64,000 nt of DNA from Amphiura filiformis (Eukaryota > Echinodermata > Ophiuroidea > Amphilepidida > Amphiuridae). The position numbers and the translations under genes were made by a program. The DNA is taken from positions 33,822,353 to 33,886,352 of the forward strand of contig NC_092639.1 of the NCBI RefSeq assembly GCF_039555335.1, in the 5' to 3' direction. Under the pieces are notes generated by a model, which saw nothing but the letters and a program-made list of their open reading frames with translations, was not told the origin of the DNA and ran no database searches. Below, piece after piece: positions 4,223 to 49,400 of this stretch. How positions within the stretch are numbered: position 1 is the stretch's first letter; each line of letters starts with the position of its first letter.

Positions 4223-4477
4223 ATGTGATCTTCACCAATGCCGTAGTCAGTATCTCAGCCAGTACGTACACTGGCGAAGGCTCAGGGTTAGATTTTGCAA
4301 TAGTGACATGGGCATCCCCATCAGTAGAATTACCAGACAACTCACAGACCTATACAGTGTCGTCAGACGTTGGCTCCGGAGCTGAATTTCAGATCGGGGA
4401 AACCGTCGTGAAGTACGTCGTCACCGACTCCGGTGGAAGCTCAGTGGCAACTCATTCTTTTACTGTCACTGTAGAAG
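4223..4477 (+). CDS. Exon 1 seen: HYR module 1 (diverged)
   Basis: 85 codons between CCACAG and GTGAGG, phase 1 at both ends. It keeps the HYR skeleton: VTWASPSV, then [21 protein letters not shown] and HSFTVTVEG. The usual DNSG is DNSQ, and GNxxx before the last strand is changed to GGSS. There are no cysteines. The acceptor is preceded by a pyrimidine-rich tract at 4199-4219. It is the most diverged module at this end and is separated from the next by 2.2 kb. Confidence 0.8.
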
Positions 4478-22400: not shown

Positions 22401-25400
22401 TAAAGTAAGGCTAATGAAAGCCGGGGGGCAGCCACTCATGTATAAAAGTTGTAAGCATCCGTGTGGATTAACTTTCAAAAATGACCCTTAAGCTAGGAAT
22501 GTTGAATATTTCTCAAGCTAACCCTATAAAAAAGATTTTACTCCAATAAAAACATCCAAAGCGAATAATTGGTTTGAAAGTTAGCCTGAACAAGGATGCA
22601 CAGTAACACATTCTACACACATGTTTGGTCTTATAATGAAAGGCAGAAAAATAATGAAAAACTTACCTTACTTATTTTCAGAAATTATGTGATGGGAAAC
22701 TCAAGGTCGACTGTCAGTAGTAGCCTAATGGTCATTCCCATTAAAATGGGGAATTACCATTAGGCTACTGACAGTCAATCTTGAGTTCCAAATGTTTTCA
22801 ACTCAGACAACTAAGAGCCAGTAAATGTCCTTCACATCAAGTAGCACATTATATAAACAATATTAGCTCATTGGGACCACAAAAGTATACTTCAGACTTA
22901 TAGACGTTATAGGCGTCATAGCCTCATAGGCCCAAAATTGAATCATTATTAGCATATATTAGCTTGAGCTTTTATGGGTTTTATTATTGCCATAAGGAAT
23001 TACTTGCAAAATGAAAATAAGCAGTTACTTTAAACCAATTAACATGTGTATGTCATTTTCAATCTGTTTGTAAATGTAAATGTGAAATACTTGAGTAAAT
23101 GTAGTCTCAGTGTCACATAAGTTTAAAAATAAAATTGTCATGACAAATTATGTATTTCAAGTCTAGGAACTTTGCTTGGTTTGGATATAATGTTGCTTTA
23201 GATTAGATTAGATTTATTAATGTCTTTTCACTCATTACATGATACAAGAATAATACATTATAATATAATGATAATAATAACTATGGAAAATGCATAATCT
23301 TGGGACTGGTTGAGCTGACACATATTTGTGATGGATTATGCATGTTATATAAAAATAAGTCATTTAAGTTTTTCAAAATATGTGGTAAAAACATTTTTCC
23401 ATTGGTTGTTTTCCCGCACAGACAATGAAGGTCCTGTATTTAGCAACACCCCTAGTGACATCACTGTGGATACAGAATCAGGTCTGTCTTCTGCTGTTGT
23501 AACATGGACAGAACCAACAGTGACCGATAACTCAGGAGACTACACAGTAACATCAAATTACAATTCTGGATACAGGTTTCCTTTGGGAACAACCACAGTT
23601 AAATATTATGCATGGGATGCAAGTGGCAACAATGTCACTTTTGAATTTAATGTTACTATTGAAGGTAAGTTTGATTGATTTTACCATGTTATTTATTACT
23701 AATACCACGGAGGTATATAAATAAATGGAGAATGATCGCCAGAATTCTAATCTCTTAAGTGGAGATTATCCTATTACCTCTATTCAATGAGTCACCAAAC
23801 TTGAATGACTAGCCACTTCAGCCAAGCTATTGATCTCCAAGATGGTTATGAGACTCTACCATGGTTCATTGATCGTCACTCCCAAAATTTCCTCATAGGA
23901 ATTGACCCTACATTGACCCGTACCGGAAGGCTTGTAAAAGAGACTGTATAATGAAGTCAGCTAGTCAATAAGCTGTTCAAAGTCGCCAGTTTTGATAGCT
24001 TATAGTTTCAATGTATGATTGTGCGAAAACCCGATGAAATTTGGATGTTCTGTTCTCAAGTTATGAAACTGTTTTCAACACTAGTTGTGCCGTAACTTGA
24101 CAAATATACTTAGTTTTCATGTTCATATATTAAGCTTTTAAGGGGGTCTGAAGGAGTTCAAATATAGTGCAAATGAAAGCAAAACGTTTTTACCTTACAA
24201 TTGTAAAAAAATTATGTTGGGCCAATTTGGGCCAATTGAGTTAAGAGCGAGTAAAATTTACGGAAGTACTTGAATTCAGCTAAAATCTTTTCAACATCAT
24301 TAAACTTCTCATTTTATAATAAATAATTATCAGTATTTAGGCCTAAATGATTATTAATATTATTAGGGGCCATCATTTTCTTTGGAGGGGGGTTCCAAAT
24401 AGGCCTATACCGGGGGGGGGGGGTCATAACCTTTTGGAAAGAAAAATAGGGGGTCATAGCCTAATTTAGTTTTTCAAGAATCATGACCTAAATGTAGGGG
24501 GTCACAATATGACCACAGATATAGGCCTACAGATAGGGTGTTTATTTTATTCAAAAAGACTGATTTCAATGCAATTTTTTGGCGAAAATGACATTTTGAT
24601 ATTAAATTTTCTGAAACATGAGCACTTTCCAATAAACATTATAAGTAACTGCATTTAGCACCCCATTGAAAGAAATGACCAGTGAAACAGACTTAACAAT
24701 GTAATCAGCTTAGCATAATCAATATCCCCTGAAATTGCCTATTCAACAATAATTGGTCATAACCAACGTAGTACAAAAGATGCTTGGCTAGATCATTCTC
24801 CATTTATTTATATACCTCCATGCTAATACTATGTAGATATACACTGTTCCACAAAGATAAATAAAAAAATGAGAGATTCACTTCCTTGATCTTTTGGCAA
24901 AACCTATCAGGGTTCCATAAAACTGTTGCTTTTAGTTACATCTATAATGGAACATAATATTGATTTGTGGTTTTCTTGTGACCAGTCTAAAAAGAGTGAA
25001 TACAATTTTTTTGTGAAATTTTCAACAATAATTGGTATATGTTATACTAAACAGGACTGAATCTTAAAAGCGTTTTGCTATCCATTTAGCAGCTGGATTT
25101 TGTGTGTTGTTTTTTAATATGTTTTAAAATATTTGAGCTCCTTGACTTGGTTAATATGGTCATTAATAAAAATGTGTCACATTTACAACACAACTCCCTT
25201 GACAATCATAGTATGTATTTTCTGTCTCAAAACATTGCTTGGTTTTTTAAATAACTTTGCTTTTCAGTTCATCTTTGGACAGGATGAATGGTCATATTTC
25301 TGAGGGATTATGCTTGTTAATATAAAAACAAATTAAGTCATTCAAAATTTGCAGTCATAAACATTTTTACATCATTTATCACACAGATAATGAAGGTCCA

Positions 25401-28400
25401 GTATTTAGCAACACCCCTAGTGACATCACTGTGGATACAGAATCAGGTCTGTCTTCTGCTGTTGTAACATGGACAGAACCAACAGTGACTGATAACTCAG
25501 GAGACTACACAGTAACATCAAATTACAATTCTGGATACAGGTTTCCTTTAGGGACAACCACAGTCAGATATTATGCATGGGATGCAAGTGGCAACAATGT
25601 CACTTTTGAATTTAATGTTACTATTGAAGGTAAGTTTGATTGATTTTATGTTTTATTTTCTACTATGTAGATATAAACGTTTTCACAATAATAAATAAAA
25701 AAAATGAGAGATTCACTTCCCTGAGATTTTGGCCAGACTTATCAGGGATCTAACAAACTGTTGATAAAAGTGGTTTTCCCAAGTAAAGTGTTGGATGCAT
25801 GCCGTTAGACCAATAGGCCTATAAAATAAACACAGTGTCAGACAAAAGTCTTTGAACAAGGCAAAAGTTCGAAGTCAGCAAAAACATCTAAATCCAGCGA
25901 TGCTGAGGTCTTCATCAGTGCTTGGGCCCCAGTAATATAAAATAGCAATACTCAGAGACTCGTTTCTGATTAGAAAACATTAGCACAAACATGTATTTCT
26001 AATCAAACTGTTGCTTTCAGTTGCATCTTTAATGGAACATAATTGGTTCACAATTTTCCTGTGACAAGCTTGAAAAAAGTTGATTTTAAAATTTGATTTC
26101 TTACTAAACAAATACTCTTACCATTTGTTATATTTCAGACAATGAAGGTCCTGTATTTAGCAACACCCCTAGTGACATCACTGTGGATACAGAATCAGGT
26201 CTGTCTACTGCTGTTGTAACATGGACAGAACCAACAGTGACTGATAACTCAGGAGACTACACAGTTACATTAAATTACAATTCTGGATACAGGTTTCCTT
26301 TGGGGACAACCACAGTTAAATATTATGCATGGGATGCAAGTGGAAACAATGTCACTTTTGAATTTAATGTTACTATTGAAGGTAAGTTTGATTGATTTTA
26401 CCATGTTATTTATTACTAATACTATGTAGATATACACTGTTCCACAAAGATAAATAAAAAAATGAGAGATTCACTTCCCTGAGATTTTGGCAAAACCTAT
26501 CAGGGTTCCATAAAACTGTTGCTTTTAGTTACATCTATAATGGAACATAATATTGATTTGTGGTTTTCTTGTGACCAGTCTAAAAAGAGTGAATACAATT
26601 TTTTTGGGTAAATTTTCAACAATAATTGGTATATGTTATACTAAACAGGACTGAATCTTAAAAGGGTTTTGCTATACATTAAGGGATCTAAAATGAGCGT
26701 TTATTATGTTTACAGTATTTTTGTGGGACATGAGAGCACCTCAGACCTATCGAATTGCATTCTGAATACTGAAGCATGTCTTTTGATATCAAATAATTTT
26801 CATTTTTTGAAAATCACAATATAATACAAATTTTATGACAAATTATAAAAATTTGATATTTTTCAAAATTTTGATATATAACAGTCCTCGAAGTACCGGT
26901 AAATATATAAATCTAATGATTCATTCTTAAAGTGTATGTACTAATGTAGCAGGGAGGAAAAGCCGACGGTCAATTGAAAATTTTGACCTTTTATATTGAA
27001 GATATGGATTTTTTCCCAAAAGACATAATTTTTTTTTGGTGCTTTGGGAAAAAATCCATATCTTCAATACTGAAAGGTCAAAATTTTCAATTGATCGTCG
27101 GCTTTTCATCCCACCTACATACACTTTAAGTATAAATCATCAGATTTATAAAGTTTACTTCAAGTACTGTTAAATATCAAAAATATCAATTTTAATGATT
27201 TGCCATAAAATGTGTATTAAATTGCGAATTTCAAAAAATCAAAATTATTTGATATCAGAAGGACATTCTTCGTATTTAGAATGCAATTCGATATGTCTGG
27301 TGTGCTTTAATGTCCCACAATAAATACTGTCCAAACGTTCATACCCCACCCCTTAACAAAGAGGATATATGGTATAAACCTATTCTTATTTCTAAGAGTA
27401 ACTTTGATGATTGTTTCTTGTTTGAAAGCAACGTACGATAACTTATAGTTAAATTCAATACTAATCACTCCCCTAAATTGCAAACGTACTGTCAGTTCAA
27501 ATATACTTGTTCAATGGAGAATTATGTTATGTTATTAAATCGATCTGCAAGATCTGCTTTTTGTAAGCTTCGTATCAGCGCACATCTGCTCATGGTTGAA
27601 AAGAGTCATTATTCCTCACCAAAAATTCCTCCTGAAGATCATCTTTGTACTTTTGCGAGCTTCACGAGGTTGAAGATGAATTCCATTTTGTTATGCGGTG
27701 TTCACTTTATAATAATTTGTGTGTTAATTTGTTTGAATTATTTGATATCAGAAAGACATTCTTCGTATTCAGAATGCAATTCGATATGTCTGATGTGCTC
27801 TAATGTCCCAAAATAAATACTGTCCAAACGTTCATACCCCACCCCTTAAGCAGCTGGACTTTGTGTGTTGTTTTTTAATATGTTTTAAAATATTTGAGCT
27901 CCTTGACTTGGTTAATATGGTCATTAATAAAAATGTGTCACATTTACAACACAACTCCCTTGACAATCATAGTATGTATTTTCTGTCTTAAAACATTGCT
28001 TGGTTTTTTAAATAACTTTGCTTTCAGTTCATCTTGGGACAGGATGAATGGTCATATTTCTGAGGGATTATGCTTGTTAATATAAAAACAAATTAAGTCA
28101 TTCAAAATTTGCAGTCATAAACATTTTCACATCATTTATCACACAGATAATGAAGGTCCAGTATTTAGCAACACCCCTAGTGACATCACTGTGGATACAG
28201 AATCAGGATCTGTCTACTGCTGTTGTAACATGGACAGAACCAACAGTGACTGATAACTCAGGAGACTACACAGTAACATCAAATTACAATTCTGGATACA
28301 GGTTTCCTTTGGGAACAACCACAGTTAAATATTATGCATGGGATGCAAGTGGCAACAATGTCACTTTTGAATTTAATGTTACTATTGAAGGTAAGTTTGA

Positions 28401-31400
28401 TTGATTTTATGTTTTATTTTCTACTATGTAGATATAAACGTTTTCACAATAATAAATAAAAAAAATGAGAGATTCACTTCCCTGAGATTTTGGCCAGACT
28501 TATCAGGGATCTATCAAACTGTTGATAAAAGTGGTTTTCCCAAGTAAAGTGTTGGATGCATGCCGTTAGACCAATAGGCCTATAAAATAAACACAGTGTC
28601 AGACAAAAGTCTTTGAACAAGGCAAAAGTTCGAAGTCAGCAAAAACATCTAAATCCAGACAGACAGAGGCACAGACAGAGGCACAGAGTCACAGAGTCAC
28701 AGACTACCAGTATTATTATATAGATGATAATAATAACTATGGAAAATGCATAATCTTGGGACTGGTTGAGCTGACACATATTTGTGATGGATTATGCATG
28801 TTATATAAAAATAAGTCATTTAAGTTTTTCAAAATATGTGGTAAAAACATTTTTCCATTGGTTGTTTTCCCGCACAGACAATGAAGGTCCTGTATTTAGC
28901 AACACCCCTAGTGACATCACTGTGGATACAGAATCAGGTCTGTCTACTGCTGTTGTAACATGGACAGAACCAACAGTGACTGATAACTCAGGAGACTACA
29001 CAGTAACATCAAATTACAATTCTGGATACAGGTTTCCTTTGGGGACAACCACAGTTAAATATTATGCATGGGATGCAAGTGGCAACAATGTCACTTATGA
29101 ATTTAATGTTACTATTGAAGGTAAGTTTGATAGATTTTATGTTTTATTTTCTACTATGTAGATATAAACATTTTCACAATAATAAATAGAAAATGAGAGA
29201 TTCACTTCCCTGAGATTTTGGCCAGACTTATCAGGGATCTATCAAACTGTTGAAAAAGTGGTTTTCCAAGTAAAGTGTTGGATGCGTGCCGTTAGACCAA
29301 TAAGTCTATAAAATAAACGCTGTGTCAGACAAAAGTCTTTGAACATGGCAAAAGTTCGAAGTCAGCAAAAACATCTAAATCCAGCGATGCTTCATCAGTG
29401 CTCGGGCCCCAGTAATATAAAATAGAAATACTTGGGGACTCGTTTCTGATTAGAAAACATTAGCACAAACATGTATTTCTAATCAAACTGTTGCTTTCAG
29501 TTGCATCTTTAATGGAACATAATTGGTTCACAATTTTCCTGTGACAAGCTTGAAAAAAGTTGATTTTAAAATTTGATTTCTTACTAAACAAATACTCTTA
29601 CCATTTGTTACATTTCAGACAATGAAGGTCCAGTATTTAGCAGCACCCCTAGTGACATCACTGTGGATACAGAATCAGGTCTGTCTTCTGCTGTTGTAAC
29701 ATGGACAGAACCAACAGTGACCGATAACTCAGGAGACTACACAGTAACATCAAATTACAATTCTGGATACAGGTTTACTTTGGGGACAACAACAGTTAAA
29801 TATTATGCATGGGATGCAAGTGGGAACAACGTAACTTATGAATTTAATGTTACTATAGAAGGTAAGTTTGATTGATATGTAATATGTTTTATTTACTACT
29901 ATGTATATATAAAATGTTCCACAATGATAAATAAAAAATCAGAGATTCCCTTCCTTGAGCTTTTGCCAAAACTTACCGGGGATCTATCAAACTGTTACTT
30001 TCAGTTGCATCTTTATTGGAGCGTAATTGTTTCATGATGTTCTTGTGACAAGCTTGAAAAAAATTTATTTTAAATTTGATTTCTTACTAAACAAGTACTC
30101 CTACCATTTGTTATATTGCAGACAATGAAGGTCCAGTATTTAGCAACACCCCTAGTGACATCACTGTGGATACAGAATCAGGTCTGTCTACTGCTGTTGT
30201 AACATGGACAGAACCAACAGTGGCCGATAACTCAGGAGACTACACAGTAACATCAAATTACAATTCTGGATACAGGTTTCCTTTGGGAACAACCACAGTC
30301 AAATATTATGCATGGGATGCAAGTGGAAATAATGTCACTTTTGAATTTAATGTTACTATTGAAGGTAAGTTTGATTGATATACGTATTAATTACTACTAT
30401 GTATATATAAAATGTTCCACAATGATAAATAAAAAATCAGAGATTCCCTTCCTTGAGCTTTTGCCAAAACTTATCGGGGATCTATCAAACTGTTACTTTC
30501 AGTTGCATCTTTAATGGAACATGATTGGTTCATGATGTTCCTGTGACAAGCTTAAAAAAATTATTTTAAATCTGATTTCTTACTAAACAATACTCCTACC
30601 ATTCGTTAAATTGCAGACAACGAAGGCCCAGTATTTAGCAACACCCCTAGTGACATCACTGTGGATACAGAATCAGGTCGGTCTTCTGCTGTTGTAACAT
30701 GGACAGAACCAACAGTGACTGATAACTCAGGAGACTACACAGTAACATCAAATTACAATTCTGGATACAGGTTTCCTTTGGGGACAACCACAGTTAAATA
30801 TTATGCATGGGATGTAAGTGGCAACAATGTCACTTTTGAATTTAATGTCACCGTTGAAGGTGAGTTTGATTGATTTTATGTTTTATTTACTACTATGTAG
30901 GTATAAACTGTTCCACAATGATAAATAAAAAAGGAGCTTTTGCCAAGACTTTTACAGAGGGATATATCAAACTGTTGCTTTCAGTTGCATCTGCTATAGA
31001 ACATAAATGGTTTGTGGTTTTTCTGTGACCAGCCTGAAAAAGTTGATTTCAAAATTTGATTACTTCCTAAGCAAACTACTGGTACCATTTGTTATATTTG
31101 CAGACAATGAAGATACAATGTTTTCCAACACCCCTAGTGACATCACTGTGGATACAGAATCAGGTCTGTCTTCTGCTGTTGTAACATGGACGGAACCAAC
31201 AGTAATGGATAACTCGGGAGACTACACAGTAACATCAACTTACAATTCTGGATACAGGTTTCCTTTGGGAACAACCACAGTCAGATATTATGCATGGGAT
31301 GCAAGTGGAAATAATGTCAATTTTGAATTTAATGTCACTGTTGAAGGTAAGTTTGATTGATTTTATGTTTATTTTCTACTATGTAGATATAAACGGTTTC

Positions 31401-34400
31401 ACAATAAAAAATAAAAAATAAGAGATTCACTTCCCTGAATCAGGGTTCCATAAAACTGTTGCCTTAAGTTACATCTATCTACTATGTAGATATACACTGT
31501 TAAACAATGATAAATAAAAAATGAGAGATTCACTTCCATTAATTGGTTTTAAAAAATAGCTTTGCTTTCTGTTCATCTTGGGACTGCATTAACTGTCATA
31601 TTTGCAAGGGATTATGCTTGTCAATATGAAAACAAATTAAGTCATTCAAAATTTGTGGTCGTTAACAAATTCACATCATTTATCACACAGATAATGAAGG
31701 TCCTGTATTTAGCAGCACCCCTAGTGACATCACTGTGGATACAGAATCAGGTCTGTCTACTGCTGTTGTAACATGGACAGAACCAACAGTGACTGATAAC
31801 TCGGGAGACTACACAGTAACATCAAATTACAATACTGGATACAGGTTTCCTTTGGGGACAACCACAGTCAAATATTATGCATGGGATGCAAGTGGAAATA
31901 ATGTCACTTTTTACTTTAATGTCACTGTGGAAGGTAAGTTTGATTGATTTTATGTTTTATTTACTACTATGTAGGTATAAACTGTTCCACAATGATAAAT
32001 AAAAAAGGAGCTTTTGCCAAGACTTTTAAAAGAGGGATATATCAAACTGTTGCTTTCATTTGCATCTGCTATAGAACATAAATGGTTTGTGGTTTTTCTG
32101 TGACCAGCCTGAAAAAGTTGATTTTCAAAATTTGATTACTTCCTAAGCAAACTACTGGTACCATTTGTTATATTTGCAGACAATGAAGATACAATGTTTT
32201 CCAACACCCCTAGTGACATCACTGTGGATACAGAATCAGGTCTGTCTTCTGCTGTTGTAACATGGACGGAACCAACAGTGATGGATAACTCGGGAGACTA
32301 CACAGTAACATCAACTTACAATTCTGGATACAGGTTTCCTTTGGGGACAACCACAGTCAAATATTATGCATGGGATGCAAGTGGCAACAATGTCACTTAT
32401 GAATTTAATGTTACCGTTGAAGGTAAGTTTGATTGATTTTATGTTTTATTTACTATTCTCTAGATAAAAAAACTGTTGCACAATGATAAATATGAAAAGA
32501 GAAATTCACTTCCCTGAGCCTTTGTCAAAACTTATCAGGGATCTATCAAACTGTTGCTTTCAGTTGCATCTTTAATGGAACATGGTTGGTTTGTGTTTTT
32601 CTTGTGACAATCATTAAAAAAATTTGATTCTAAATTTGATTTCTGACTAAACAAGTACTCCTACCATTTGGTATATTTCAGACAATGAAGGTCCAGTATT
32701 TAGCAGCACCCCTAGTGACATCACTGTGGATACAGAATCTGGTCTGGCTACTGCTGTTGTAACATGGACAGAACCAACAGTGACTGATAACTCAGGAGAC
32801 TACACAGTAACATCAAATTACAATTCTGGATACAGGTTTCCTTTGGGGACATCAACAGTTAAATATTATGCATGGGATGCAAGTGGAAATAATGTCACTT
32901 ATGAATTTAATGTTACTATTGAAGGTAAGTTTGATTGATTTTATGTTTTATTTACTATTCTCTAGATAAACAAAGTGTTGCACAATGATAAACATGAAAT
33001 GAGAGATTCATTTCCCTGAGCTTTTGTCAAAACTTATCAGGGATCTATCAAACTGTTGCTGTCATGGTTGGTTTGTGTTTTTCTTGTGACAATCATGACA
33101 AAATTTGATTCTAAATTTGATTTCTGACTAAACAAATACTCTTTCCATTTGTTATATTGCAGACAATGAAGATCCATTGTTTTCAAACACCCCTAGTGAC
33201 ATCACTGTGGATACAGAATCAGGTCTGTCTACTGCTGTTGTAACATGGACAGAACCAACAGTGACTGATAACTCAGGAGACTACACAGTAACATCAAATT
33301 ACAATTCTGGATACAGGTTTCCTTTGGGGACAACCACAGTTAGATATTATGCATGGGATGCAAGTGGAAATAATGTCACTTATGAATTTAATGTTACTAT
33401 TGAAGGTAAGTTTGATTGATTTTATGTTTTATTTACTATTCTCTAGATAAAAAAAGTGTTGCACAATGATAAACATGAAATGAGAGATTCATTTCCCTGA
33501 GCTTTTGTCAAAACTTATCAGGGATCTATCAAACTGTTGCTGTCATGGTTGGTTTGTGTTTTCTTGTGACAATCATGACAAAATTTGATTCTAAATTTGA
33601 TTTCTGACTAAACAAATACTCTTTCCATTTGTTATATTGCAGACAATGAAGATCCATTGTTTTCAAACACCCCTAGTGACATCACTGTGGATACAGAATC
33701 AGGTCTGTCTACTGCTGTTGTAACATGGACAGAACCAACAGTGACTGATAACTCAGGAGACTACACAGTAACATCAAATTACAATTCTGGATACAGGTTT
33801 CCTTTGGGGACAACCACAGTTAGATATTATGCATGGGATGCAAGTGGAAATAATGTCACTTTTGAATTTAATGTTACTATTGAAGGTAAGTTTGGTTTGT
33901 TTATTTATTACTCTGTTGATAAAACTGTTCCACATTGATGAATTAAAAAGTATTAGTGTCACTTCCCTGGACTTTTGTCAAGACTAAACAGAGTTCTATC
34001 AAACTGGTGCTTCAGTTGCATCTTTATTGGAATATAATTAGTTTTGTTGTTTTCCTGTGACCAGCCTGAAAAAAATTTGATTTTAAAATTTGATTTCTTA
34101 CTAAACAAATGCCTTAATTACCATTTGTTATATTGCAGACAATGAGGATCCGTTGTTTTCCAACACCCCTAGTGACATCACTGTGGATACAGAATCAGGT
34201 CTGTCTTCTGCTGTTGTAACATGGACAGAACCAACAGTGACTGATAACTCAGGAGACTACACAGTAACATCAAACTACAATTCTGGATACAGGTTTCCTT
34301 TGGGGACAACCACAGTTAAATATTATGCATGGGATGCAAGTGGAAATAATGTCACTCTTGAATTTAATGTCACTGTTGAAGGTAAGTTTGATTGATTTTA

Positions 34401-37400
34401 TGTTTTATTTACTACTATGAAGCTATACTAACCGTTGCACAATGATAAATAAAATGAGCTTTTGTCAAGACTTTTAAAAGAGGGATATATCAAACTGTTG
34501 CATCTTTAATAGAACATAAATGGTTTGGGGTTTTCCTGTGACCAGCCTGAAAAAGTTGATTTCAAAATTTGATTTCTTCCTAAGCAAACTACTGGTACCA
34601 TTTGTTATATTTGCAGACAATGAAGATACAATGTTTTCCAACACCCCTGGTGACATCACTGTGGATACAGAATCAGGTCTGTCTACTGCTGTTGTAACAT
34701 GGACGGAACCAACAGTGATGGATAACTCAGGAGACTACACTGTAACATCGACTTACAATTCTGGATACAGGTTTCCTTTGGGGACAACCACAGTTAGATA
34801 TTATGCATGGGATGCAAGTGGCAACAATGTAACCTATGCATTTAATGTTACTGTGGAAGGTGAGTTTAATTGATTTGATTTTATGTTTCATTTACTATTC
34901 TCCAGATAAAAAAGTGTTGCACAATGATAAATATGAAATGAGAGATTCACTTCCCTGAGCTTTTGTCAAAACTTATCAGGGATCTATCAAACTGTTGCTT
35001 TCAGTTGCATCTTTAATGGAACATGGTTGGTTTGTGTTTTTCTTGTGACAATCCTGATAAAAATTTGATTCTAAATTTGATTTCTTACTAAACAAATACT
35101 CTTTCCATTTGTTATATTGCAGACAATGAAGATCCATTGTTTTCCAACACCCCTAGTGACATCACTGTGGATACAGAATCAGGTCTGTCTACTGCTGTTG
35201 TGACATGGACAGAACCAACAGTGACTGATAACTCAGGAGACTACACAGTAACATCAAATTACAATTCTGGATACAGGTTTCCTTTGGGGACTACTAGAGT
35301 TAGATATTATGCATGGGATGCAAGTGGAAATAATGTCACCTCTGAATTTAATGTTACTATTGAAGGTAAGTTTGGTTTGTTTATTTATCACTCTGTCGAT
35401 AAAACTGTTACGCAATGATTAATTAAAAATTGTGAGAGTCACTTTCCTGGGCTTTTGTCAAGACTACAAGACCAAACAGTTTGGTTTTGTAGTTTTCCTA
35501 TGACAAGCCTGAAAAAAGTTGATTTCAAAATTTTTTTTCCTATTAAAAAATGCTCTTACCATTTGTATTTCAGACAATGAAGATCCATTGTTTTCCAACA
35601 CCCCTAATGACATCACTGTGGATACAGAATCAGGTCTGTCTTCTGCTGTTGTAACATGGACAGAACCAACAGTGACTGATAACTCAGGAGACTACACAGT
35701 AACATCAAATTACAATTCTGGATACAGGTTTCCTTTGGGGACAACAACAGTTAAATATTATGCATGGGATGCAAGTGGTAACAATGTCACTTTTGAATTC
35801 AATGTCACTGTGGAAGGTAAGTTTGATTGATTTTTATGTTTTGTTTACTACTATGAAACTATAAACCGTTGCACAATGATAAATAAAATGAGCTTTTGTC
35901 AAAACTTTTAAAAGAGGGATATATCAAACTGTTGCATCTCTAATAGAACATAAATGGTTTGGGGTTTTCCTGTGACCAGCCTGAAAAAGTTGATTTCAAA
36001 ATTTGATTTCTTCCTAAGCAAACTACTGGTACCATTTGTTATATTTGTAGACAATGAAGATACAATGTTTTCCAACACCCCTGGTGACATCACTGTGGAT
36101 ACAGAATCAGGTCTGTCTACTGCTGTTGTAACATGGACGGAACCAACAGTGATGGATAACTCGGGAGACTACACAGTAACATCGACTTACAATTCTGGAT
36201 ACAGGTTTCCTTTGGGGACAACAACAGTTAGATATTATGCATGGGATGCAAGTGGCAACAATGTAACCTATGCATTTAATGTTACTGTTGAAGGTGAGTT
36301 TAATTGATTTGATTTTATGTTTCATTTACTATTCTCCAGATAAAAAACTTTTCCACAATGATTAATATGAAATGAGAGATTCTATTCCTTGAGCTTTTGT
36401 CAAAACTTATCAGGGATCTATCAAACTGTTGCTTTCAGTTGCATCTTTAATGGAACATGGTTGGTTTGTGTTTTTCTTGTGACAATCCTGATAAAAATTT
36501 GATTCTAAATTTGATTTCTTACTAAACAAATACTCTTTCCATTTGTTATATTGCAGACAATGAAGATCCATTGTTTTCCAACATCCCTAGTGACATCACT
36601 GTGGATACAGAATCAGGTCTGTCTACTGCTGTTGTAACCTGGACAGAACCAACAGTGACTGATAACTCAGGAGACTACACAGTGACATCAAATTACAATT
36701 CTGGATACAGGTTTCCTTTGGGGACTACTAGAGTTAGATATTATGCATGGGATGCAAGTGGCAACAATGTCACTTTTGAATTTAATGTTACTATTGAAGG
36801 TAAGTTTGGTTTGTTTATTTATCACTCTGTCGATAAAACTGTTTCTCAATGATTAATTAAAATGTATGAGAGTCGCTTCCCTGGGCTTTTGTCTAAACAT
36901 GGTTCTATCAAACTGGTGCTTCAGTTGCATCTTTATTAGAATATAATTAGTTTTTTGGTTTTCCTGTGACAGCATGAAAAAAATTGATTTCAAAATTTGA
37001 TTTCTTACTAAACAAATGCCCTAATTACCATTTATTGTATTGCAGACAATGAGGATCCATTGTTTTCAAACACCCCTAGTGACATCACTGTGGATACAGA
37101 ATCAGGTCTGTCTACTGCTGTTGTAACATGGACAGAACCAACAGTGACTGATAACTCAGGAGACTACACAGTAACATCAAATTACAATTCTGGATACAGG
37201 TTTCCTTTGGGAACAACCACAGTTAAATATTATGCATGGGATGCAAGTGGGAATAATGTCACTTTTGAATTTAATGTCACTGTGGAAGGTGAGTTTTGAT
37301 TTGCATTACCTTTAGTACATACTTTCGAACAGTGTTGCTAACAATGGGCTATTCCATTTAAAATCCACACTACCCCTGTGGAAGATTTTGGAAATATCTT

Positions 37401-40400
37401 CAATAGGGGGGGTATAAATTTCAAATGGAATGAACACATTTGGCAGCTCCCTTTGAATTTCATACACCCCCTGAGAAAGATTCAACTTTAATCTTCCACA
37501 GAGGGAGGGCAAGTTTCAAATAGAGTTGGTTAATGTGCTAGTTCCATTTGAAATTCATACTCCTTCTGTGGAAGATATTTCCAAAATCTTCCACAGGGGT
37601 AGTGTGGATTTTAAATGGAATAGCCCAATATTGATGATTCTTGAATATTATTTTCAATTATGCGTTATCAAAAACATTTCCAGTTGATTAAATTTTGTTT
37701 TCTTATTTTCTTATTCACAGACAATGAAAGCCCAGTGTTGTCGAACACACCGAGCGCAATATCAGCATTCACATCCAGTGGACAAAATGGAACTATTGTT
37801 ACATGGACGGAACCAACAGCGAGTGATAATTCAGGGGTCTACACGATTACTTCAAATTACAATTCTGGATACAGATTTCAAATAGGAACAACCAGAGTTG
37901 TATACACTGTATTGGATGCGAGTGGAAACACTGCTTCCTATGCCTTCAATGTTACAGTCATTGGTAAGTGTTTCTGTATTGGATGCGAGTGGAAACACTG
38001 CTTCCTATGCATTCAATGTTACAGTCATTGGTAAGTGTTTCTGTATTGGATGCGAGTGGAAACACTGCTTCCTATGCCTTCAATGTTACAGTCATTGGTA
38101 AGTGTTTCTGTATTGGATGCGAGTGGAAACACTGCTTCCTATGCATTCAATGTTACAGTCATTGGTAAGTGTCTCTCTGTCTGATAGGCAATGGGCTATT
38201 CCATTTAAAATCCACACTACCCCTGTAGAAGATTTAGCTAAAGTCTTCCACAGAGGGAGTATGAGTGTTGAATAAAAATCAAAAGACAATTGGGTAATAA
38301 CTTCAATTTGAAATACTCACTCCAGTTGTAGAAGATAGAGGTAAAGCCATAATACAGGGGGAGTATGGGTTTCAAAATGATTAACCATGACCAATTAGAT
38401 TTGAAAAACATACTCCCCCTGTGGAATATATTTCCAAAATCTTCCACAGGGGTAGTGTAAATTTCAAGTGGAATAACCCAATGCTTAAGGAAATCAATCA
38501 TGTATTAGGTGCAATAAAATTGTTGTCTTGTCCTCCCCCAACCCTAAATATTGCAAATTCAGTGTCAGGTTTTAATTTTCTTTCCATTCAAAATGTGAAT
38601 TTGTCAAATTATTTTTTTGATCTTTTTAATGGTAAATATTGAAATATGCAATATAATGATTTGGCTACTGATTTGTTGAAGCTCAAAAAAGATGGCAGTA
38701 ATTTACCAATAAAGCCCTTTTATGAAATATCATAATGATATGGATGATTTAAAAAACAGCCATATATTAGTTCTGGAACTAAGTAAAAGAATCTATATTT
38801 TCCTACAAACTTTTCATCATACATGAACAGGCAATGAGAGTGTGTCTCAATATCACTGAGTCAACAAGAGTATAACTAATATAGACTGGGGAAACACTAG
38901 TTAAATTTTTGCCAAAAAAAACCCCCTTTTTGCATGTCTAGTGAAAGGAAGTGTACGGCAGTCACAACATCATGTCTTACATGTTAGAAAAATAATTATC
39001 AAGCACGAATCACATGGTTTTATTTAGTAAACTAACTCATATTGACCATAAAAAACAGCTGGCTCTCAAAATGCTATATTCATAATTACCACGCCAAAAT
39101 TGTATAGAGCAATGTCATCATGGTTCTTTGTGCTCATTTGTCGGCAGCCTTTATTGTATTATTGGGACGTCATTGCTCTAGACAATTTTGGCAATATTCA
39201 GAATTTTGAATATCGTGTGTTGAGAGCCGGCTGTTTTTATTCATTTTTATGGTCAATAAGACTTTGTTTAAAGTGAAACCATGTGATTCATGCTTGATAA
39301 TTATTTTTCTAACATAATGTTGTGATTGCTGTACACTTCCTTTAAAATATTGTAAAAAAACACCCTTTTTTGCATGTCTTAATACTTCTTTGTTTTGCAT
39401 TTTGTGTTTTAACAAGTGATGACTCGCTTAACCATCATAAAATGTATTCACACAAATCGTCGGTCACATCACATACAGACCTATAAGTTTAATACCATTT
39501 TAAATAAAATTGTTTCACATACAGAGCTTATAACTTTAATACCATGTTACACAATGTTACTCAAAAGATTCACCAAAATTAGTACTTTCAAGTGTTTTGT
39601 TCATAAAGACTCCCTTTCAGGAAAATTAATTTAGCTTGAGGCTAAGTTAGTTTGAGGCTAATTCTAAAACCAGCATTGTATAGCTTTGTATGTGAAAAAC
39701 TTTTGTCCGATTCCGTATAGAACCCTATGTGATGTGACTGACGAAATATCATTTAATCATGGTTTGCTTATATTACAGACAATGAAGCCTCCATGTTCTC
39801 TGATACGCCCGGTGACATTACCGTCAACACTGAGTCTGGTTTAGCTACTGCCAGCGTAACATGGACAGAACCGACAGTGACTGATAACTCAGGGGTGTAC
39901 ACAGTAACATCAAATTATCAATCTGGAGAGAGTTTTGGTATAGGTATAACACAAGTGATCTATTCTGCTTGGGATGAACAAGGAAACTATGCTTCATTTT
40001 CATTTAATATTACTGTTATAGGTGAGTTTGAATTCAATATATATATTAGCTTTAAGTTTGTATATTCCTTTCTCTCTGTTAGTCACGGTTGAGTGCTTTT
40101 GTTTCTTACAAAAATCAAATTGGTATCACATTTGAATCATTTGATAGGGATTTTATGGTTAAAAATTCAATCTACCAAGATTTTCTTCCACTCATCTCAC
40201 AGATTTTCTTCATTCTCATCATTATTCCTGTGTATACTTGAAAGATTATTGCAGTCCATGTATGTTCAGAATAAGATTCATACAATCTTCATAGTTTCTA
40301 TTAGGATGGAAATTATAGCACTTCTATTCAGCCTTTTCCAATTTGTCCTAAATCTCACTTATTGTATATAATACTATGGGAGTTTGGCAGTTCAGGAAAT

Positions 40401-43400
40401 TCTGGTATAAGGTGTGCAGTGTCTGTCTCACAAAAGGGAAACCTGAGCACATTACACTACACATCTTACAAAGTACACACTTTTTCTGAAACAGTAGGGA
40501 TCATCTCCAGGTCAAAGGCATATTTATTCTACTGGAATTAAATTTCTGTTTTACATACAATGCACTTTGAATAAAGATACACTTGCAAATCTGGTGAATA
40601 TTTAATGATATCACAACCTGTTTTTTTTGTCTCAAATTAATTTCATCTTTTCAGACAATGAAAGTCCGCTGCTCCTCAACACACCAAGTTCAATCATAGC
40701 AGACATAGACTTTGGACAAAATTACGCCACTGTAACATGGACAGAACCAACAGTGACCGATAACTCTGGTTTCTACACATTAACCTCAACCCATAGCTCT
40801 GGTTCACAGTTTAGTTATGGAGTCACAACGGTGACTTACACTGCAGTTGACGAGAGTGGAAATACTGTCTCGTATTCATTTAATGTTACCGTTCAAGGTC
40901 AGTAAATCAATGTTGTAAATAAGTCTTGCAACTTTGGTATTGAAGAACTTGTAGTAAGAAGTTAGTACACTAGCAGATTCCTATTGTGGCCACCTGCACA
41001 GGTACACCGTACTATTCAGTAGCAGGAGCAGGGGAGTACCATTGTAGTACCAGTGCAGTATCACTACTAATGGGTCCTGTGCAGTAACAACATTGGTTCT
41101 GTTAGGTACTTTGTCTGTAGCATTGGCAATGGTGTATACCTGTGCAGGCGGCTGCAATAGGGATCTTGTAGTATAGTATTAGGAGCATGCAGTCACTCTT
41201 GAGCATGGTGCTTGGAATGTAAGGCTGCTGCTTATGATGATGATTCGGATAAGGATGATATGACAATTTTGCTACTGATGATTGATGATGGTTGTGTTGA
41301 TGATTGATGATGAGGATGACAAAGACGATGGTAGCATTTGAAAGCATAATATTGGCAGCCTTGAAACTCATTTCACAATGTCTTACATTGTGACTCTTCT
41401 TTTATTCTTCCCCAATATACAGATGTTGACCCACCTGTATTCACCAATCTCGTTGGTGACGTCACACAGAGTACAGATTCTGGTCTTGCTACAGCTAATG
41501 TAACATGGACAGAACCAACAGTGACTGATAAATCAGGAATTTACACAGTAACATCGAGTTACACCCCTGGATCAACTTTTAGTTTAGGAATTACAACTGT
41601 AACATACAGTGCAGTGGATTGGAGAGGCAACACAGCAGAATATTCATTTGATATTGATGTAGTAGGTCAGTATTAACTCTCTCCATGCGGGTGTTGACTG
41701 CAGATGACAAAATTCAAATGAACAAAAAAAAAAGGAAGGTTTTATTTCAAACTCTAATGGTGACCCGCAGGTCAAATTGCTAGAATTGAACATTAAACAC
41801 AACTAAACAAACACAATGCAATTTGCAGGCAGCAGCTTAATCAGCGCCAATATTGCAACATTGAAACAAACAACTATACAAACATCCAATCCAACCCAAC
41901 CCCATCCCCCAGTAGGCAATGAGGATAAAGTGCCTTGCCCAAGGACACAGCACGTTGGCACGAGCGGGGCTCGAACTCACAACCTATGAATTATGAGTCG
42001 GGTGCCTTATCCACTTGGCCACTCGTGCTCCCCAAATAATTTTTACAAATTCAAAAATCTCAGAATTGTACATTTTCATGACCATATTTGGAATCAGTAT
42101 GAAAAATACATCAAAATGAGTACAAACAAGCCTAGTATTGGTTCAGAGGCTCTTAAGATAGCTCTTGATATTTTGAGAAAATATCAAAACCTTGGCTTTT
42201 TATGTTGAAGCCTATACAGAGCATAAAGATGAATAGTATTATTTTCTTCGGGACATAGGGATATTATGGTGTGTAATGTGGTCCAAAATAGTAACAAATT
42301 GTCTGTGAATGATAGGTTTACATGTAATTTAATGCATTAGCAATTTTCTGTTGCATTTGTATTGTTTTATCTTCCAAGACCAATCTTGATATTAGTGATG
42401 TAATTGGTTAATTATTCCACACACAGGTTAATTATTCCACATACACTAAAACTGAACTACCCGATTCCTATTGCTGGCACCCCCATAAGTACACTGCTGC
42501 CCAGCTACTTTGTGGCTTTTCACCAGTGCAGTACCAGTCCAGTACCAGTGTGGGTACTGTACATATGATTCTGATGTGTGTACTCTAAGAGTGCCTACAC
42601 AGGTACTCTGTAGTACCAATGAAGTATCTATGTGGTAGTGTACCTCTGGTGAGGCAGCAATACAAATCTGGTAGTGTACCTTTGATACTGAATGTAGTTC
42701 CATGCCTCAATAAACAAGTGATAATTCATTTTATTGTTTGTGTATAAATTTCCAAACCTTTAAATTTTATCCTGAAGTCCACCAAATACCATTTCAAAGG
42801 TTTTAAAGTTTCAAAAGTTTACAAATCAAGCTTGGAGTGATTACTACTTTCTAATCGATATGATTTCTCCCCAAATCTGACATTACAGACGATGAACCAC
42901 CAACCTTCCTCACCACTGTCAGCGACCTGTTTGAATATGCCGACTTGGGCCTAGACCACACCAGAATAACGTGGACAGTACCAACTGCCATCGATAACTC
43001 GGGCGTGTATACAATAACAACAACTCAACGATCAGGAAGTGATTTCCAAATAGGCGACACCAATGTTACTTACACTGCGGTAGACAGCTCTGGCAACACT
43101 GCTTCTTTCTCTTTCATAGTCACTATAAATGGTAAGATCAGTGTCTTCATTTGCTTGAACAAAAATATTTGAATAATTCAAGACTGTAGATCAAAGTTTA
43201 TTATTGGTGATTTTTTTGATAGGCAAATCCAATGTTTTTTACTCACTTTCTGAGTTTTTGATGACAGGTTATATCATCTTGATCACAGATATCCAGGCTC
43301 ACTGCACTACCAAAGTTGATTATTTTGAACAAAAACATGCAGGAGTAAAGTGATACCAATATACCACTTCAAATCAATTATTGATTTTCTATAATCAATG

Positions 43401-46400
43401 TTCAATATCTTGCACTTTACTTTTTTTTTCCATTACAACCATGGTTCAAATTGAAACAAATTTTTTTTCTTCAAAATGATGGCAATACCGTAAAAACTCG
43501 ATAGTTAGCATATGTGCTTACTATTGAGTGCTTTTGAAAACTTGAAATTGTACCAAAATCCAGAACTTTACCAACTGAGCTAATGGGGTTGAGACATAAA
43601 TTTGCAGGTTTACTTGTTTGTATAGCTAGGTGTATTGATGATTTGCTCAAAACCCTTTACACTTTTGTGGATGGGGAATTTCATGTTTGCATGTTTTATA
43701 GTGCTCGATAGTGAGCACATATGCTAACTATCAAGTTTTTACGGTATAAGTTTTAAAAAGTATTGTGAGTAGGGACCATATCGAGAGGAACAAACTTTGA
43801 TGAATCATTTATGTTAATTGACCTCATTTGACTGTGACCGTATTACTTGTGAAGTACACGTAGACAAACAAGAAATTTGGGCAATCTTTGTAACCCAAGA
43901 AGAGTAAATTTGACTTAAAATTTGGCATGGGGTGTGGAGAAATTTGGCATTTGGTGCGGAATTTTTGCAGTTGGAGGGAAATGTTGCCTTTCCAAAGAAA
44001 GAAAGACATTTTGTGACCAATTGTGGGAAATGATGCTATCTTTGTGGGAAATTTTGACATAACTGGGAAGTAAACTTTCTTTCCAGGCTTACTGGAGATT
44101 CTCATGAACAATTTACACTGTCTATTGTTTTAATATGCTAACAAAGCAACTTTGTTTTCAAATCTGATTATCCACAGAGACGTTACCAACACTAGCACCA
44201 CCAACCCCAACAGCTCGTACAGTAGGCTGTCCACCGGGTCAGCTGGCATGCCCAGAGGGAACATGTATACCAGAGGATTATTTCTGTGACAATAGACCTG
44301 GTGATTGCTTGGATTATTATGATGAGTCTGTGGAAGCTGGATGTGGTATGTAATTTTTAGTATTTTACTTAAAGGGTCATTTCGTGATCCACAGCCCCGT
44401 ATCCCCACTTTTTTCAAACAAAGTTAAGATTTTTATACCACAAGAAAGCTCTGGCTACATAATGTGTATGTCTAAAAAGTTTCTTGCAGATTAATTCACT
44501 TTGCAAAATATCATATATATAATGTTATAACTCAAGATGATAAACTGTAGAACAATTTTTAACAGTCATTGCAACTCGGTGCTCAGCTGGTTTTTTGTGA
44601 TATAGTTTTCCCAATTTGTACTTCGATAAAATGTATCATTAATAATAAAATAAGTAAAATCATAAACAGCAAACTATTTTTCAATGTGTTTCTCTTTTTA
44701 TCCATAATATTTTTTGCTTAATTTTGTTCTACAGCTCCTTGTGCAGCGTCTGAATACCGATGTCCTGAAGGCTTGTGTATAACAAAGGATAACATATGTG
44801 ATGACTATCCTAATGACTGCTTGGACAACTATGATGAATCTGATGTACTCTGCCTAGGTGAGTAACAGCTATAGTCTATATATCTACCTCGAGTCACCGG
44901 CACTTGCTTTGAAGTTCAACGTGTGCTGCATTGGCTTAGTGTGCTTTCTTGCGTGTACATATTCAGCTTGTTGATCGTACACGTAAAAGTATGTCCACAC
45001 ACCAAGTAACGCTAAGCTAATGCAGACCATATTGAACTTCAAAGCTAGTGCTGGTGATTCGAGGTAGATATATAGGATATAGACTATACACTATAGGGTA
45101 TAATGTGATATGCACATGTCATACCTAGTAATGCACTGATACACCCTAGATCTGAATCTAATGATCATGTTGCTTGCTAAATCAGTGGATCGTTTCGAAA
45201 AGAATACAACAGATGTTCAAAACTAGATTGATCTTGATGCATATCTTAACCTTATTTCATTGTTTCATGCATCATTTTGTTGACCTCAACTTTTTCATTT
45301 TATACTGTATGATTTTTACGCAAATAAATTCAATTGGAAGATAAAAACTTCTCTCTTTTCAGACATGTTTAGACTGTTATACTACCAACTCCAATAATAT
45401 TCATGTTACCAACATACTTATATCTGTGTCTACAATGTATAGTCATGTCAATAAAGCAATTGTGACATAACAAATTGTTGTCCTTCTAAAATGCAGGTAC
45501 TTGCCGCACACGTGGAACTCCCGAGAACGGAATAGAGATGGGGACATTCAAGTACAATTACAAGAGTGGTGAGAATGCCACATTTGGTTGTAATTTTGGT
45601 TACACCATGGTTGGTTCAGCTACAGTGACTTGTGTAAATGGAGTCTGGAGTGATGACTTACCTTTCTGTTATGGTAAGTACAAGGGTGTGTTCCACAGGA
45701 GGGTGTGCAAAGGGAGCACCAGCTGCCACAGGGTCTACGCCTCTGTAAAAATTTTGAAAACCTCAAAACCATGTAATAATGATTAAATTTTTGATCCAAA
45801 CACTGATCATGGATGAAAGATGGAGTAACCATATGAAAATTCCGAGAGGTAGGAGTAACTTTCTTGTGTTTGGATCAAAAGTTAAAAACATCAATAATTC
45901 AATATACCAATACAGATGAACTTAAGTAAAACTTGTAAACAGCTTCAGGCCACACACTTAGGTTTTTGTGTTTCTCCACAGAGAGTTGCACTGACTTGAC
46001 ATCACCTAGGAATGGAGCAATCGATATGTCAGATACTGGTCATGGTGGATTGACTACCTTCGCATGTAATACTGGGTATCAAGAAAGCAGCATATATCCT
46101 CTAGAGTGTGTTGACGGCTCCTACAATGGCAGCGTCACCACATGCTCAGGTTTGTATAATAGAAAAGTTCATGCAATAGATACAAATACTGTACTGCCTT
46201 GTGTGTTTTTGTATGAACATTATTATTTTATATAATGAGATAATTGCTAATTAGCGTAATTGCTAATTAGGGGACACAAATTAGTGTGACTATGTATGGT
46301 ATTGAAAACTTGTGATCATAAAAAAATAAAAAAATAACACAAGGTAGCAATGATGTATTTCATTTTTTCTTCTTTTTTTTTGCAAAAAAAAAGTTAAAAA

Positions 46401-49400
46401 AAAGAAACAAGAAAGTTCCAAATCCTTTATCACACGCAATTTTAATATTTATTGAGTGGGGGTACTAACATAGTGACCTTTCATATACTTAAAAATGCCC
46501 ATTGTTATGGAGATTTTGAAAATCATTAATTAAGAAGCAAACCATTATGTTAATCTTTCCACTGTTTCACCTCTTCTCCTCTTTTGATGTTTACAGAGAT
46601 TAATGAATGCGATGTCAGCCCATGTCAGAATGGGGCGACGTGTATTGATGGCATCGCCTCATTCACATGCACCTGTGCTCAAGGATGGAATGGAACTCTA
46701 TGTGATGAAGGTATGTAAACATACAGCCACCCCCACCCCACCCCACACACACATTCGTCATATACACACCCACCCCCACACAGAGATTAATGAATGCGAT
46801 GTCAGCCCATGGAACTCACTGTGGTGAATGTATGTAAACACTCAGCCACCCCACCCCACCCCACATCCATCATATACACACCCCCACAGAGATTAATGAA
46901 TGTGATGGCACTCTATGTCAGGAATGCGATAACATGTATTTATGAGATCAGTACATTCCATGCACCTGTGCTCAAGGATGAAACGGAACTCTTTGTAATG
47001 TGCAGTGTTGCCAAAACTTTTCAGCTTCAAGGCGCGGCGCATTGACTCGCCAGGCCGCGGTAAAGGATTCTCAAGTAGCCCAATTTTCTAAGCTTCAAAA
47101 AAGCGCCCAATATTGGATATTTGGGCGGATTACCCGAATTTAGAACGCAAAACACCCAATTAGGCGGAAAAACACTTGACTTTGAAACTTCCGGTACTTA
47201 CTGGGAAGTTACTGACCGATCAATAAATGGTCACAAAACCCATTGTAATTTCAATTTGGAGCTTCAAAGACTCAAAACCTTTATAAATCGGCTAAATTGA
47301 AAGGAAAATACATCAAATTAGTGCCGCGGCCTGAGACTGTCAACAGTAGCCCAATTTTAGACAAGTAGCGGCATGCTTTTTTGAGTAGCGGCAAGTGATC
47401 GCCAAGTAGCCCAATTGTGCGCCTAAGGCGCGGCGTTGGCATCACTGGTAATGTGTAATGATGGTATGTATATGTACAGACAGACAGACAGACAGTCTTG
47501 CATACATGCACACCCCCACATATGGTACACACCAGTGGTATGTAACTCAGTAGACTGATTTGTTCCTCCAATTATTTTTGGAGAGGTTGATTTTGTGATG
47601 AAAAAAACTTGCTTTGGCACATTTAATGCATAAAATACTGTTAAAAACTTTTTATCATAATAAATATTGATTTGAGATGATACAATACTTAAAAATTAAA
47701 CTTTAAATCTTTTTCATTTCAGATATCAATGAGTGTTTGAGTTCCGACCTCAATGAATGCCATGCCAACTCTGTCTGCAGTAATCTGCAGGGCTCTTACA
47801 ATTGCACCTGTTTGGTTGGTTTCCGAGGAGATGGATTAAGTTGCCTAGGTAATGCACTGACAATGTATAAAGCTAATTGATATATTTTATGCTAAACTTC
47901 ACTAGCTTTTGTACTCCCTATGATTCATTGGGTAAATAAACCATGAGGTTGGCCTGTCCTTTGGAGGGGATGTTAAGTTGTCTGTCCTACATACAGATAT
48001 TCATACCTGTCGTCTGACGATTGCCTTTTAGGCATGAAACTCAGAGTAACGACTACCTATTCTGGAAGGTCTGTTCTTTGAATTTTTATACGCTCTCCCT
48101 TTTGGGATTGAGCACTTCATTCAAAAGATAGTCTAACTATGAGTAAAATGTTGATATTCATACCTCTATATCTTATGCCCCTGTCATACTGTTATGCCGC
48201 TTGCCGCTACGGAAAGCGGCATGGCATATGAGCCAATGACAAGCCTTGATTGTGTTCATTTGTCTGCAGTGCACATGCTTCATGCCACTCAACGGCAAGC
48301 AGCATGGCAGAATGAAACCAGCATATATTTAATCAGTTTTTGAAAAACCTTAATGTCTTTCCCAATCCATTTGGGTTGCAATCAAGAGGGACCTTAGGGA
48401 AAATAATGTTTTGTCACTAAAATATTTTTCATTTTATGTTACAGAGAACTTCTTCTTCTCCTGGGGTTTAAGTGCTGGTGATTCAAGCCTACGGGTCTCC
48501 TTTGATAACAGCGACACACAATTCACAGAGCTTATATCAGAAACCATTAGACCACCGAGAGGATATCCATTCTTTGGAGAATATTTCTACAGTATATATG
48601 TAAGTGGGATACAAGTGTCTAAGAGTGTCTAATTAACTGCCATTATTATGTCAGTCCATCATTTGCATAGTCAAGTTTACTCCTAATGGGCAAATTAAAA
48701 ATAATTAAATTTAACAGATGTTGAATTGCAGTTATAATTAAGGAAAGATTTATAAATAAAGGCCATAGTAACAAATATTATAATGCCTTGAACCTCCAAT
48801 TTAAAACAGGAAATTTTCCTCAAAATGATTGAAGGGTAAACCTAGCCCCGATTTGTAGCTAAAGCACTTGTTGTACTTCCATGTCCCATTGGCCCCTGAA
48901 CATGTTTAAAGCAAAACCTCCTATGCAACCTCGTGGTAGATTTTTTAAACATGTTCAAGGACCACATAGGAGGTTTTCCTACCCAATGACGATGAGGATT
49001 TTTTTGGAAGAAGGTGATGTAAATGACCATTTGTTTGTTTATTACTTTAATATATAAATGGCTGACTGCATGCCATTGGAAGTTGCTTACCCTTGTTTTA
49101 GGTCATGTTTATATTATATTCTATTAACTACAACCTTCTAATTTATGCAGTTCACTGAAAATGGTCTGTTCCTATTCATCCGTGAGAATGACGATAAGTA
49201 CGGTTTCCCTTACCCATATGAAGCTGGGTTTGCTGCTGACTCTGGGGACAGGATTGTGGCACCATTCTGGGCTGACATTGACTTGTCTACCGATGTAGGA
49301 AATGTCTATTTCCAGGTAAGTAACCTTATACCTTTATTGAGCCAATCAGCAACATGGTAAGAATGGTGGTAAGGCTGAAGAGGTTTAACCCTATGAGTAC

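Follow-up and report, generated by a model that had tools for sequence, protein, structure and literature searches.

The described system closest in kind to the locus reported here is human LPA KIV-2, a coding repeat that includes its introns, keeps the reading frame and yields a run of like extracellular domains. The KIV-2 unit is 5.6 kb and is present in 1 to ~40 copies per allele (PMC11462820). Tandem HYR domains occur in the sea urchin extracellular adhesive proteins hyalin and EBR1; S. purpuratus has 21 hyalin genes (PMC11212366), EBR1 carries multiple HYR repeats (PMC8403831) and EBR1_5 has seven, with positive selection in three (PMC5521101). MUC4 has a NIDO-AMOP-VWD order (PMC9080433, PMC5039420), and the GDPH motif in its VWD domain is a putative self-cleavage site (PMC8660890). 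The locus analyzed here is a tandem array in which 21 HYR exons are each accompanied by an intron, in a 64,000-nucleotide window of the Amphiura filiformis genome (contig NC_092639.1, positions 33,822,353 to 33,886,352, forward strand). The array probably arose within a MUC4-like gene by repeated unequal exchange, which multiplied one HYR exon and its adjoining intron one to three units at a time.

The array exons are 243 bp in 20 of 21 cases and 244 bp in one. AG precedes and GT follows all 21, the borders having been set by these splice sites. Pfam HYR (PF02494) matched the two array exons scanned with E values of 1.4e-16 and 9.9e-17 (61 and 61.5 bits) and exon 22, the first exon past the array, with 62.2 bits, against a cut-off of 21.7; Pfam scanning covered plus-strand sequence before 19893, these two array exons and plus-strand sequence past the array. 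An HYR profile derived from the 20 readable array copies, searched against the window in six frames, recovered every readable copy plus three upstream and five downstream HYR exons, all on the plus strand, and minus-strand matches were no better than E = 0.49. The window contains no N. The 20 readable copies encode 19 distinct proteins with a median pairwise identity of 92.5% (range 83.8-100%, 190 pairs). The predicted structure of one HYR domain has six strands and no helix (mean pLDDT 83.9). Its sequence has no match in the PDB, and its model matches no solved structure at E ≤0.001, the best being a PKD domain (E = 0.075, TM 0.55).

An earlier note on this DNA had given the number, lengths and HYR identity of the exons correctly and had assigned phase-1 borders to all of them. 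The 243-bp copies are indeed phase 1 at both ends; exon 4 is the exception, where an extra base after a GG pair breaks the frame and the translation runs into stops. Because an intact exon has 243 bases and is phase 1 at both ends, the frame is kept for any whole number of units. The array is thus, like KIV-2, a tandem of frame-neutral exon-plus-intron units.

The 20 array introns range from 208 to 1765 bp, and the description of them as nearly the same does not stand. The 14 introns shorter than 300 bp have a pooled difference of 15.9% by multiple alignment (95% interval 13.5-18.4), with pairwise differences of 0.4-24.7%; pairwise alignment of the same introns gave 12.7%, the multiple alignment being the more careful figure. 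The 3' parts of introns 1, 3, 4 and 9 are unlike those of the other introns. Two shared features ascribed to the introns hold for subsets: a stop follows GKFD after 13 of the 21 exons and not after the rest, and the exact block TACCATTTGTTATATT precedes seven of the 21 acceptors and is not found at the others. In the exons of the same 14 units, synonymous sites differ by 13.7% (9.2-18.8) and nonsynonymous sites by 4.8% (2.7-7.1). The ratio of intron to synonymous divergence is 1.17 (95% interval 0.82-1.76), so intron divergence is on a par with that of silent sites, and the introns are not protected. This agreement bears out the proposal that introns were amplified together with exons. An intron divergence far above that of the exons, named in advance as the result that would speak against it, is absent when synonymous sites are the yardstick and comes nearer when the yardstick is total exon divergence, which averages 6.4% (15.9/6.4). 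Over the 190 pairs of readable exons, synonymous divergence (dS) averages 0.145, nonsynonymous divergence (dN) averages 0.046 and the pooled dN/dS is 0.32; the likeness of the exons is due in large part to selection on the protein.

A separate feature of the exons is the uniformity of codons 8-25. Synonymous differences are 0.007 in this segment and 0.171 elsewhere among the 20 copies (scan P = 0.005), and third positions vary at one of 18 codons compared with 31 of 62 elsewhere, while seven other sites in codons 8-25 vary. On visual comparison, the bases of this segment are not shared by HYR exon 23. A splicing or RNA signal is possible.

The array is layered and is not the product of one recent burst. 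Self-comparison gave 183 matches of ≥200 bp, and the block repeats described here were taken from the 45 of these that were listed. The longest match among those listed pairs exons 15-17 with exons 18-20. Exons 8-9 pair with exons 10-11, exons 2-3 align with exons 5-6 (1015 columns, 95.4%), and exon 1 with its upstream bases aligns with exon 5 and its upstream bases (416 columns, 98.8%). The segment that runs from late intron 1 through exon 2 into early intron 2 recurs at 27849-28658 around exon 4 (811 columns, 98.5%). A single difference in 237 sites separates introns 12 and 13, and a single one in 243 separates exons 13 and 14. A chance origin of the repeats is excluded by self-alignments that extend to 1325 bp at 96.7%. 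Maximum-likelihood trees support intron groups 14/17/20, 8/10/15/18 and 11/12/13/16/19 and exon pairs 16+19 and 17+20, and both trees recover the block partners. Some blocks are 0.4-4% apart, other introns are ~15-25% apart, and intron classes within the array are ~20% apart, which rules out a uniformly recent burst and lends no support to full homogenisation. The amplification can therefore be called recent, one of the two options in the earlier note, for the closest blocks; it cannot for the array as a whole, where mean dS is 0.145.

Individual introns retain the marks of these events. The first 268 bp of intron 4 match intron 2 at 99.6%, a 53-bp simple repeat follows, and the last 166 bp match the bases directly upstream of exon 1 at 98.8%. 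Introns 1 and 3 are ~97% alike outside one ~1.1 kb insertion in each, so both insertions postdate the copying. The insertions are probably mobile elements.

Layered blocks with these divergences are the pattern expected from repeated unequal exchange of exon-plus-intron units. In the proposed mechanism, one HYR exon with its intron would have been multiplied by successive exchanges of one, two or three units, and each whole unit would keep the frame while adding or removing 81 residues. After a block duplication, introns and synonymous sites would drift at about the same rate, and amino acids about three times more slowly because each domain must fold. If a single transcript joins all the exons, the product would be a surface or matrix stalk of ~26 or more HYR domains ahead of LDLa, Sushi, EGF, NIDO, AMOP and VWD. 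Copy-number variation between individuals is plausible, and stalk length may vary with it.

Block copying is also supported by a period of three in units 13-21. Members of introns 13-20 that lie three or a multiple of three places apart differ by 7.4% and the remaining pairs by 19.8%; for exons 14-21 the values are 3.2% and 7.0% (P = 0.0006 for each). Periods 2, 4 and 5 gave no signal in any set tested. Several observations weigh against block copying as the whole account. Units 13-21 were selected after inspection of the aligned introns, and period 3 is absent when the full set of 21 exons is used (P = 0.58). Exon 4, if spliced in, would truncate the protein. Exon distances correlate with distances between the introns that precede them (r = 0.45, P = 0.0002) and only weakly with distances between the introns that follow (r = 0.15, P = 0.11). 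Individual units are therefore mosaics, and plain block copying leaves part of the array history unexplained. Distances agree between halves with r = 0.67 for introns and r = 0.39 for exons, and a comparison of exon 9 with exon 11 gives 0 and 1 differences over the initial two thirds and 8 over the final third. From the mosaic pattern, exchange points seem to fall within or just after exons, which fits the selected exon as the best homology stretch for exchange. A further step, possible although doubtful, takes the coding exon as a recombination platform. Because protein selection keeps the 243-bp exon alike while the introns drift, exchanges would concentrate in exons; the shuffled intron classes would form higher-order repeats of the alpha-satellite kind, and the stalk would change by 81 residues per step between individuals.

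The mosaic units and the near absence of linkage between exon and following-intron distances are also what continuing gene conversion would give, and conversion could keep 21 units alike at a stable copy number in place of unequal exchange. It is unlikely to be the main process, as distinct intron classes ~20% apart stand side by side, alike stretches span whole exon-plus-intron blocks in register and intron 4 is a duplication junction. Conversion centered on the exon middle is unsupported (middle-third synonymous difference 0.087, P = 0.09). Unequal exchange would be mimicked in part of the array if two haplotypes or repeated reads had been placed end to end in the assembly. Exons 1-2 and 3-4 with their introns do resemble two alleles with one insertion each, the 811-bp match at 98.5% has simple-repeat filler at its junction, introns 12 and 13 differ at a single site, as do exons 13 and 14, and two HYR exons with broken frames show that small errors are possible. 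Most units are distinguishable, lying 13-16% apart at neutral sites, far above stutter, and few are close enough to be suspect, which leaves assembly error with a still smaller chance. A splicing cassette giving stalks of several lengths by skipping or choosing exons is improbable: skipping any intact exon leaves the frame unchanged, a genuine extra base in exon 4 would make skipping of that exon obligatory, and tandem arrays of mutually exclusive exons are known from Dscam (PMC1397879), but the Dscam exons are diverged alternatives whereas these copies are 92.5% alike with uniformly good splice sites.

The array probably belongs to a larger gene (Table 1). The downstream exons lie on the same strand as the array, their phases match where checked, and NIDO, AMOP and VWD follow in MUC4-like order, AMOP and VWD with scores under the Pfam cut-off. 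Such scores, LDLa included, are common with single exons. We infer that the array and the downstream exons form one larger plus-strand gene in which the HYR repeats would occupy the place of the MUC4 mucin repeats. Because the downstream exons are MUC4-like, a surface or matrix role of the product is more likely. The window ends just after the C8-3_MUC4 match, and no membrane anchor is seen before that point. The frame-broken upstream HYR exon and exon 4 are either decayed exons or small sequence errors.

Table 1. Coordinates of the HYR exon array, its internal blocks and the flanking exons in the window.
Feature	Coordinates	Strand	Evidence or remark
Diverged HYR exon, upstream of array	4223..4477	+	HYR profile
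HYR exon with broken frame, upstream; end approximate	6716..6952	+	HYR profile
Diverged HYR exon, upstream of array	9138..9380	+	HYR profile
HYR exon array, 21 exons each with own intron	23422..37288	+	Splice-site borders, HYR profile, Pfam
Starts of array exons 1-11	23422, 25387, 26139, 28147, 28878, 29619, 30122, 30617, 31104, 31691, 32180		
Starts of array exons 12-21	32682, 33163, 33643, 34139, 34617, 35123, 35574, 36051, 36557, 37046		
Insertion in intron 1, absent from intron 3	23718..24822	.	41-bp inverted repeats at both ends
End of intron 1, exon 2 and first 268 bp of intron 2	25088..25897	+	Self-alignment
Insertion in intron 3, absent from intron 1	26684..27842	.	Long self-inverted repeat
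Exon 4, 244 bp, one extra base, broken frame	28147..28390	+	Border mapping, translation
Intron 4, junction	28391..28877	+	Sequence comparison with intron 2 and exon 1 upstream bases
Two-exon block, exons 8-9	30631..31370	+	Repeated at 31705-32446 (exons 10-11), 96.4%, 742 columns
Three-exon block, exons 15-17 with introns	34136..35459	+	Repeated at 35571-36893, 96.7% over 1325 columns
Three-exon block, second copy, exons 18-20	35571..36893	+	Self-alignment
HYR exon 22, first diverged exon past array	37721..37963	+	HYR profile, Pfam
HYR exon 23	39779..40021	+	HYR profile
HYR exon 24	40655..40897	+	HYR profile
HYR exon 25	41423..41665	+	HYR profile
HYR exon 26	42889..43131	+	HYR profile
LDL-receptor class A (LDLa) match	44228..44344	+	22.7 bits, under 24.1 cut-off
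Second LDL-receptor class A (LDLa) match	44737..44841	+	19.4 bits, under cut-off
Sushi match	45532..45669	+	Above cut-off
EGF match	46608..46694	+	Above cut-off
Calcium-binding EGF match	47722..47844	+	Above cut-off
NIDO (nidogen-like) match, best stretch	50951..51214	+	62 bits, above cut-off
AMOP match	57797..57982	+	18.9 bits, under 25 cut-off
VWD domain start, GDPH motif	59315..59413	+	21.0 bits, under 22.9 cut-off
C8-3_MUC4 match	62910..63011	+	Above cut-off

The GDPH motif lies in the VWD exon at 59313-59426. At 37907-38176, four copies (98% alike) of a 67-bp unit carry the final part of HYR exon 22 and its 5' splice site. Productive alternative use of the four donor copies was rejected, as the second donor shifts the phase and a stop precedes the remaining ones; only the first gives an open, in-phase exon 22. 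On either side of this repeat, at 37330-37620 and 38180-38480, motifs such as AATGGAATAGCCCA and TCTTCCACAGGGG recur by eye in both orientations, and these stretches are possibly a small mobile element. Farther upstream, tandem repeats of ~198 and ~197 bp, with two to three copies each, lie at 14277-14859 and 16710-17138.

The array is a clear, datable record of repeat protein growth inside one gene, in which every protein repeat is paired with a neutral clock, its intron, and past exchanges are legible block by block. If copy number does vary between individuals, the species would offer a natural length series of one stalk, and domain number could be tied to a trait.

Compared with LPA KIV-2, the array unit has one exon where the LPA unit has two, and the LPA units are closer to each other. 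In two amplicons, 87 and 120 positions distinguish the KIV-2A from the KIV-2B standard (PMC11462820), whereas neutral sites here are ~14-16% apart and the 14 short introns are not near-identical in the manner of KIV-2. The array resembles sea urchin hyalin and EBR1 in its tandem HYR domains; selection here is purifying over all pairs, in contrast to the positive selection in three EBR1_5 HYR domains. The available portions of the sea urchin HYR literature describe no amplification of near-identical HYR exons along with their introns and no NIDO-AMOP-VWD tail. A literature search returned no description of this array, which is weak evidence of absence since subscription journals were thinly covered; AMOP, NIDO, VWD and HYR are all named, as domain lists in legends, in the available portion of PMC7853314. 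In bacteria, one scan of plus-strand frames at 58 loci found at least three HYR repeats in one frame at 46 loci and up to 41 in one frame (L007). These arrays have no introns and are more diverged, with median repeat identities of 0.29-0.72 among the 40 frames listed, against 0.925 here. The gene shares with MUC4 the NIDO, AMOP and VWD order, GDPH in VWD and an extracellular tandem repeat run (PMC8660890, PMC5039420). It has LDLa and Sushi exons in addition, and folded HYR domains in place of the serine/threonine-rich mucin repeats. Coding arrays with introns, as in LPA KIV-2, and HYR arrays are already known; the history of the present array is unusually readable.

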